DNA of 64,000 nt, from assembly GCF_004349135.1 (NCBI RefSeq), contig NZ_SMFN01000002.1, positions 124,001 to 188,000 on the forward strand, in the 5' to 3' direction. Positions 21,732-59,356 of the stretch are shown here, in pieces (the first letter of the stretch is position 1; each line of letters starts with the position of its first letter). Source of the stretch: Flavobacterium sandaracinum. Lineage in GTDB: Bacteria; Bacteroidota; Bacteroidia; Flavobacteriales; Flavobacteriaceae. Both the position numbers and the translations under genes were made by a program. The notes beneath the pieces were generated by a model. That model was not told the origin of the DNA. It saw only the letters and a list, made by a program, of their open reading frames with translations, and ran no database searches.

Positions 21732-22464
21732 AAGAAATTAAATTTTAAATCATTTTAAAATTTGCTAGTATTTAAAATTAGGTTAGGATGGAGTTGTATT
21801 CATGGTGCTGGATTGCATTGTACTATAATTTAATTTTTTTAATGGTTCAAATTGATCTGTAAGTTGAATGAATTAAAATTTCAATAGCCGAACTTGAATT
21901 AGAAAATCTTTTCAGCCATTCACCATTTATAAACTAATTGGAATAGTCAGTTGGTTGTTCGATAAATATTTTACGCCAAGACGCAGCATTTTATTTAAAA
22001 TAACCCATTGAGAGTACTTATTCAAAACGTTTGTTCGAGTGTTTTTTGAGGAGTAAAACGGGGCAAAACTTCTCGATACGCTCCACTACTCGAAGTGACG
22101 TGTATCGAGAACCGTTTTTAATGAAATTTATACTGATCTCGATACATTTTTCTATCCAAGACTACTCGAAATGATGAAAAATTATATCAAAAACAAAGTA
22201 CACCCAACGGGGCCAAATAGAATTCTATAAGAAACAGTGGTTGTAAAAGAGGATGTAAAGGTGTTTTTTAGGAGCTTCATTCGTGCTAGTGGAATCCAAT
22301 TACAAATTAGTCAAATTAAGCATCTAGAGCACTGATTTTTTATCGAATTGGTAACCATTAACTTGATTTTATTCAAGCGGAAGGAAAACCAAATGCATTT
22401 TTTTTATTTTTATACCATTAGATAAGGTACTTTTATTACAAATAACTCAAATAACTCAATTTTA
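21732..22464. other. Gene-free region with a MITE-like element
   Basis: 733 bp with no gene after repeat copy 2. It contains MITE-like copy 1 (22004-22212). The rest is AT-rich and shows nothing recognisable except the upstream region of the acetyltransferase gene. Confidence 0.5.
22004..22212 (+). mobile_element. MITE-like family-B element, copy 1
   Basis: It starts with CCCATTGAGAG and ends ACACCCAACGGGG, matching in order the copies at 26126-26345 and 59071-59293. The shared core has GTAAAACG-GGCAAAACTTCTCG and a 10-bp stem TTCTCGATAC/GTATCGAGAA, then ACCGTTTTTAATGAAATTTA. There is no ORF. Terminal repeats have decayed relative to the 59-kb copy, and no target duplication is recognisable. 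Confidence 0.75.
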
Positions 22465-26125: not shown

Positions 26126-26345
26126 CTCCACAGGTGTAAGTATTCAAAACATCACTTTAGTTTATCCCGAACTTATTTTTTTGGAGTAAAAAGGAACAAA
26201 ACTTCTCGATACTTTCTGCTACTGGAAGTGACGTGTATCGAGAACGGTTTTTAAATCAAAATCATCTTGTTTTCAATACCATTTTCTAACGAAAATCACT
26301 CAAACTGACGATGATTAGAATTAAAAACTAAGTACCTCCAACAGG
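26126..26345 (+). mobile_element. MITE-like family-B element, copy 2
   Basis: This copy starts CTCCACAGGTGTAAGTATTC and ends AAGTACCTCCAACAGG, with the shared core GGAACAAAACTTCTCGATAC and GTATCGAGAACGGTTTTTAA in the same order as the other two copies. It fills the whole space between two convergent genes. The TAA at its left border is the stop of the ATPase, and the TTA at its right border is the minus-strand stop of the pentapeptide protein. Confidence 0.72.
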
Positions 26346-58960: not shown

Positions 58961-59070
58961 GTTTTCTAATGTTTATTTAATAGTCATTTTGTATTTCTTA
59001 TCTTAAATTTTTAATATAGCCAACAACTATGCCAATAGTAAAAAATAGGGGATCCAAGTAATTATAGTAA

Positions 59071-59293
59071 CCCGTTGGGTGTAATTTATTTTTGATGGCA
59101 ATTTTTCGTCAGTTCCAGTATTTTTCTCCCGAAGCTGCGGGAAGAAAAATGTTTCGAGAACAAGAAAAATTTCATTAAAAACGCTTCTCGATTCACGACA
59201 CTTCGAGTTGCGTAGTGTATCGAGACGTTTTGTTCCGTTTTACTTCACAAAAAAACACTCGGACAGACGCTTTGAATAATTGCACCCAACGGG
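59071..59293 (-). mobile_element. MITE-like family-B element, copy 3 (intact, with 9-bp target duplication)
   Basis: Terminal inverted repeats CCCGTTGGGTG (59071-59081) and CACCCAACGGG (59283-59293) are perfect, and extend into AATT next to the left one. The element is flanked by TTATAGTAA on both sides (59062-59070 and 59294-59302), a 9-bp target-site duplication. On the minus strand the core is in the same order as in copies 1 and 2 and has the TCTCGAT.../...ATCGAGA stem. There is no ORF, so mobilisation must be by a transposase elsewhere. Confidence 0.88.
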
Positions 59294-59303
59294 TTATAGT
59301 AAT

Positions 59304-59337
59304 AAAAAAAGGAAACGAATAATCGTTTCCTTTTTTT
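59304..59337 (-). terminator. Intrinsic terminator of the 59357-59674 gene
   Basis: GGAAACGA (59311-59318) and TCGTTTCC (59323-59330) form the core stem, extended by A-run/T-run pairs to AAAAAAA/TTTTTTT, with a 4-base ATAA loop, 20 bp past the stop codon. Confidence 0.85.
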
Positions 59338-59356
59338 ATTCTTATTTTTGATTTGA

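Follow-up and report, generated by a model that had tools for sequence, protein, structure and literature searches.

The window, the whole stretch of 64,000 nucleotides analysed here (G000:C12:124001-188000), comes from the 4.03-Mb genome of Flavobacterium sandaracinum, a draft of 65 contigs. Near 59 kb it carries a short MITE copy between direct repeats, and two older copies of the same family lie at 22 and 26 kb. The features are as follows:

59070–59294, minus strand (minus being the consensus orientation): MITE copy of 225 bp whose terminal inverted repeats are perfect over 12 bp
59070–59081, no strand: terminal inverted repeat ACCCGTTGGGTG
59283–59294, no strand: terminal inverted repeat CACCCAACGGGT
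59063–59069, no strand: target duplication TATAGTA, left copy (within the 9-bp TTATAGTAA of the preliminary description, 59062–59070)
59295–59301, no strand: target duplication TATAGTA, right copy (within the other 9-bp copy, 59294–59302)
59107–59120, no strand: subterminal stem, one side, mutated in this copy (placed by eye)
59256–59269, no strand: subterminal stem, opposite side, mutated in this copy (placed by eye)
59120–59150, no strand: hairpin arm with an enlarged CCCGAAGCTGCGGG apex
22004–22211, plus strand: older family copy with a decayed left end and no clear duplication
26126–26345, plus strand: older family copy with both ends decayed

A preliminary description had reported a MITE-like element at 59 kb with 11-bp terminal repeats, a perfect 9-bp target duplication and no ORF inside. 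Element and flanking repeats lie where it placed them, and the ORF list of the window holds no ORF of 80 or more amino acids within the element. The 11-mers CCCGTTGGGTG and CACCCAACGGG occupy positions 59071–59081 and 59283–59293, and exact copies of CACCCAACGGG occur three times in the window when both strands are counted (two at this element, one at the 22 kb copy). The terminal repeats are real but longer than first described, being perfect over 12 bp here and 18 bp long in intact copies. The 9-mer TTATAGTAA, present on both sides of the element, is better parsed as the 7-bp duplication TATAGTA plus the end bases of the element, A59070 and T59294, although both parses fit the window copy taken by itself. 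The element has the characters of a MITE: it is non-coding and shorter than about 300 bp, has terminal inverted repeats and a target duplication, exists in several dispersed copies and has ends in common with an autonomous element.

We found the 59 kb neighbourhood without the element in eight relatives (G007, G010, G029, G070, G045, G019, G294 and G200). In the closer relatives, G294 and G200, identity is 91% and 89% in the right flank and 85% and 79% in the left, and the target is present once, diverged, and runs straight into the hairpin that adjoins the insertion. The insertion is most simply explained as younger than the split from these relatives; loss of the element in eight lines is less likely. 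The adjoining hairpin (59303–59340) has A and T runs, is largely conserved in the relatives as judged by eye and looks like a bidirectional terminator.

The copies at 22 and 26 kb, described earlier as older members of the same family, do align with the 59 kb element across the interior, in the opposite orientation and with decayed ends. Neither has a clear duplication, the 26 kb copy being judged by eye. The latter fills the entire gap between the stop codons of two convergent ORFs, for an ABC-transporter ATPase and a pentapeptide-repeat protein. Across the own genome, at least 15 matches to the consensus (E ≤0.001, among the best 40 of 79 candidates scored) mark about 14 places, two of the matches being pieces of one place on contig C64. 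Ten of these places are near full length and the others are partial copies or fragments. We also observed at one copy (L004, G000:C2:21226-21437) a direct repeat of about 24 bp flush with both ends (22 positions matching, by eye), which is longer than the 2–10 bp reported for IS982.

IS982-family elements with the same ends

The DDE transposase that the preliminary description had expected to be encoded elsewhere has a likely candidate in the IS982 family, found in an element on contig C65. This 996-bp stretch (998 bp with the outer base on each side) has the ends TCCGTTGGGTG and CACCCAACGGG, which differ from those of the MITE by one mismatch, in the left end. It contains two ORFs in the same frame (140 and 112 amino acids) that match NF033520 (IS982); treated as a single frame, the transposase scores 222.8 bits against a cut-off of 130 and is interrupted by one in-frame TAA. 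This is the only match to NF033520 above the curated cut-off in the own genome, a census based on a 65-contig draft from which further IS982 copies could be missing; one other match, on contig C1, is weak (31 bits). Because the only partner found there has an in-frame stop, the MITE may now be immobile in its own genome, unless the enzyme comes from another source.

Among 299 genomes of the genus, IS982 matches of any score occur in 85 and matches above the cut-off in 37. Thirty IS982 loci were checked, counting the own one: these ends are present, 947–1035 bp apart, in 13, and 17 are without paired ends. Nine of the 13 elements have no stop inside the match. Their lengths, with the outer A and T included, range from 949 to 1037 bp and are 998–999 bp in nine. 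Most contain the 18-bp repeat ACCCGTTGGGTGHAATTA, some differ from it at single positions, and intact MITE copies have these 18 bp as well. All but one of their 26 ends start with AC, the exception being the left end of the own copy, which starts with AT.

These properties agree with those of the IS982 family, which is described as about 1 kb long, with AC ends in most members and duplications of 2–10 bp where present (Fayad et al., 2020, PMC7335449, available part). The partner elements encode an IS982-type DDE transposase, are about 1 kb long and have duplications of 7–9 bp in 6 of the 13 cases. The most conserved positions of the family's repeats are summarized from 69 elements as AC(N)6T(N)5TT in the available part of the same survey (PMC7335449). 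Compared by eye with this motif, which is not a strict criterion, ACCCGTTGGGTGTAATTA agrees in the AC only and has its T at position 11 and its TT at positions 16–17. The survey also includes ISFba2, from a 'Flavobacteria bacterium', whose length of 998 bp and 18/18 repeat equal the sizes of most partners here, a likeness of size (PMC7335449, available part). The MITE differs from these IS982 elements in having no transposase. Flavobacterium psychrophilum has IS982 transposases too, with 7–8 per genome in three isolates and target duplications marked at one insertion, and the term MITE is absent from the main text of that report as far as it was accessible (PMC10309648).

The distribution of the two kinds of element is also related. 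A MITE match occurs in 25 of the 37 genomes with an above-cut-off IS982 and in 88 of the 262 without (Fisher p = 1e-4, uncorrected for kinship). We count the latter 88 genomes, which match the MITE without a detected above-cut-off IS982, against the link.

Boundaries, duplications and target sites

Boundaries were compared across 49 MITE rows, which remained of 51 candidates after the removal of two with unrelated interiors (L014 and L075:1722). Alignment A2 contains 41 of them. The rows represent 47 independent cases, since L007 mis-parses the place of L177, and L063 and L064 come from one site shared by two genomes; no duplication is present in any of these four rows. The sample favours intact copies, as it was limited to candidates with at most 4 mismatches over the two 11-bp ends, which left out L004, for example. 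With the boundary at ACCC/GGGT, exact flush duplications of at least 7 bp occur in 25 of the 49 MITE rows and 6 of the 13 IS rows, leaving 24 and 7 rows without one. The counts are 8 and 0 with the CCC/GGG boundary of the preliminary description, and 8 and 2 with AACCC/GGGTT. A 5-bp threshold applied to 37 rows gave 21 for AACCC/GGGTT and 18 for ACCC/GGGT. We prefer the 7-bp threshold on 49 rows to the 5-bp threshold on 37, and the element ends are read better as ACCC...GGGT.

The duplications exceed what chance pairing of flanks gives. In 2000 trials with permuted right flanks, the MITE rows yielded on average 0.55 and at most 4 duplications (25 observed), and the IS rows 0.50 and at most 3 (6 observed). 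Together with the empty sites in relatives, this upholds the earlier attribution of the element to transposition; the matched flanks of further copies had been proposed as its check. The perfect 9-bp duplication was correct in that the flanks match, whereas a fixed length of 9 bp does not hold for the family: the duplications are mostly 7–9 bp, with 7 bp in 7 MITE rows, 8 bp in 10, 9 bp in 6, and 10 and 11 bp in one each, and 7–9 bp in the IS rows. The 31 duplications of MITE and IS combined start with TA in 23 cases and end with TA in 26. The same ends, duplication range and target pattern are thus common to the MITE and the IS elements.

These shared features suggest, at the level of sequence, that an IS982-family DDE transposase in all likelihood moves the MITE in trans through the common ends, with a duplication of 7–9 bp. 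Action of this enzyme on the MITE is very probable given the ends, duplications and target pattern that the two have in common. The transposase would recognize ACCCGTTGGGTG, followed in intact copies by a further AATTA, and insert the element at A+T-rich sites, mostly between genes, that have T-A at both edges. Each insertion would leave a duplication of 7–9 bp, rarely 10–11 bp, and the window copy would have been static since the local partner gained its stop codon. The pathway of IS982 transposition is itself termed unknown in the available part of the family survey (Fayad et al., 2020, PMC7335449). If the MITE is a substrate of this pathway, it gives IS982 a short natural one whose boundaries are supported and for which a target pattern and empty sites are available, so that recognition of the ends can be tested directly.

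The insertions examined lie mostly in intergenic DNA. A reading frame of at least 100 codons runs across the joined site in 2 of 48 cases, compared with 187 of 237 random flank points, a control unmatched for base composition. The genes around the 49 rows are convergent in 10, divergent in 15 and tandem in 24, with no evident preference. Two pairs of copies, L190/L191 (in G000 and G294) and L063/L064 (in G200 and G294), apparently occupy the same site in two genomes when their flanks are compared; these insertions appear to predate the splits between those genomes.

Distribution and origin of the interior

The preliminary description rightly took the element for a member of a dispersed non-autonomous family, which it described for this genome; the family extends through the genus. 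MITE matches (E ≤1e-5) are present in 113 of the 299 genus genomes, own included, a rough figure in that two candidates were scored per genome and some matches are short (33–60 bp). A family-wide draw gave matches at 1e-10 in 7 of 397 genomes and 5 of 237 genera, again with the own genome included. Among named genomes, a 28-base stretch of the element was found as 12 stretches, all in Flavobacterium records, the carriers being F. segetis, F. rhamnosiphilum, F. gawalongense and F. sp. RSP15. The family probably accounts for some of the unannotated intergenic repeats in Flavobacterium.

The MITE family is new, and its kind, an IS982-derived MITE, is already known from Cardinium. We did not find the family in the searched literature, which most subscription journals lay outside; for Flavobacterium, MITEs and IS982 taken together it yielded one paper, the Cardinium one. 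The terms IS982, Flavobac, Bacteroid and IS family are absent from a MITE review (PMC10969869). As described in the accessible part of the Cardinium paper, MITECca01 and MITECca02 resemble the Flavobacterium element in their length of about 240 bp, the lack of a transposase gene, ends belonging to the IS982-family ISCca4, a mostly intergenic location, many copies and a Bacteroidota host (PMC9769881). They differ in being present in no other sequenced Cardinium strain, whereas the Flavobacterium MITE is spread through the genus, and the part of the paper available reports no cloverleaf or exchangeable arms (PMC9769881). The likeness is one of description.

MITECca01 is also a precedent for one account of how the MITE arose, having been proposed to derive from an IS982 element by internal deletion (PMC9769881, accessible part). 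Such an origin for the Flavobacterium MITE, as opposed to the capture of a foreign hairpin between IS982 ends, would explain the 18-bp ends that it has in common with the IS elements and is compatible with movement in trans by the IS982 enzyme, as it concerns origin and not mobility. Against it, the best local scores between the MITE interior and the 13 IS elements are no better than those of shuffled controls, so that at the sensitivity of this comparison descent of the interior from IS982 is unsupported. Furthermore, a second MITE type has the same ends and an unrelated interior. We regard internal deletion as a reasonable possibility that falls somewhat short of an even chance.

The second type is represented in the own genome at G000:C7:36564-36777 (L014/L190), where its ends differ by one mismatch and its duplication is 8–9 bp long. 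Matches to it, many of which are short and doubtful, occur in 104 of the 299 genus genomes. Eight loci were fetched, two of which are missing paired ends; of the six with both ends, own copy included, five have duplications of 8–11 bp. The same ends therefore carry at least two interiors, which fits mobilization in trans of any DNA that they enclose.

Folding of the interior and its hairpin arms

The window copy folds with z scores of −6.4 and −5.3 on its two strands, and its RNA folds are not a clean cloverleaf; it belongs to a longer subfamily with an additional segment, and its stem is mutated. Single folds of three intact copies (L073, L189 and L078, the last two picked for their unusual arms) reach z of about −10 to −15. 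In the cloverleaf the terminal repeats are followed by a loop and a 14-bp stem (CGTCAGTTCGAGTG/CACTCGAACTGACG in the family consensus), and three hairpins share a single junction. This fold is optimal for L073 DNA and for L189 and L078 RNA; in L073 RNA the optimal fold is another one, with the arms paired otherwise.

Several copies carry a different palindrome in place of an entire arm. L189, for example, has ATTCCGATTTATCGGAAT and GATGCTGC-TAT-GCAGCATC, and a replaced arm GATCCCGC...GCGGGATT occurs in L101, L098 and L071. We scanned the arms of every locus collected up to that stage, including some without terminal repeats and some from other genera. Of the 71 distinct arms, 68 have at least 6 of their 7 basal positions paired, compared with a mean of 35.7 and a maximum of 46 after permutation. 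The well-paired arms are not independent of one another: 28 are built on a TTTTT core and 22 on a TTTTC core, and the remaining 18 form 13 small groups, some being one-step variants. Independent replacements are far fewer than 71, by our estimate eight to ten.

The constant parts of the fold behave differently. RNAalifold run on 41 copies returned 25 pairs, of which two show any compensatory change, and its covariation term was 0.35, which is no support. Tested by columns, the subterminal stem and central hairpin had no pairing excess over shuffles, and the terminal repeats were marginal (0.916, shuffle mean 0.907, maximum 0.917). Only arm 1 (0.911 versus 0.887) and arm 3 (0.907 versus 0.817) lay above all 200 shuffles. 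The claim of structure is therefore carried by the arms, mainly the 71-arm scan, as the frame is without clear covariation. We tentatively propose a modular cloverleaf as the interior, in which terminal repeats, the 14-bp subterminal stem and a central hairpin form a constant frame for exchangeable arms; the arms would keep their pairing while their sequence is replaced, the structure being selected as extruded DNA or as RNA as the element multiplies. We give this rather less than even credence. The arm pairing could stem from selection on structure or from a mutational process based on hairpins, and the balance of G-T and A-C mispairs, which bears on RNA versus DNA selection, is mixed between stems. 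If the proposal holds, a cruciform or RNA structure would serve the MITE life cycle or its tolerance by the host, beyond what IS982 itself needs. The exchangeable arms pose a testable question, whether secondary structure is under selection in bacterial MITEs.

Such strong folding, and base pairing specific to each arm, would also be expected of a structured RNA gene or fixed regulatory element whose repeats arose by chance and whose copies were spread by recombination. This is very improbable in view of the flanking duplications and the empty sites at 59 kb in eight relatives, which are the mark of transposition, and a permissive Rfam search (E up to 1) of nine loci (seven of the MITE family, one IS and one second-type MITE) gave four matches, none of them on an element. 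We rejected an RNA gene, having neither an Rfam match on the elements nor covariation support from RNAalifold. We separately noted Flavo-1 RNA (RF01705; gathering score 42) at L006 2591–2690 (minus strand, 67.2 bits) and, just under the gathering score, at L008 1946–2013 (plus strand, 39.1 bits). HUH enzymes are not known to produce target duplications. A REP-associated (Y1/HUH) transposase acting on REP- or BIME-like palindromes is the least probable reading, a most unlikely one even though the elements are palindromic and intergenic and the available part of a 2025 REP survey has two Flavobacterium genomes in its table (PMC12306157), because target duplications are present here and the ends match those of IS982 elements.

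Arms of the IS982-associated MITE also occur in tandem arrays. In one genome (L178 379–1541, G260:C1, about 3822078–3823240) a 77-bp unit containing one MITE arm is repeated 15 times with 95% matches, and at its end the array runs into a MITE remnant, with a full copy about 0.5 kb away. Its link to a tandem repeat resembles, by description, that of a Porphyromonas gingivalis MITE with a minisatellite (PMC4596501, available part). Smaller tandem arrays are present in L180 (3.3 x 100 bp) and L179 (2.2 x 74 bp).
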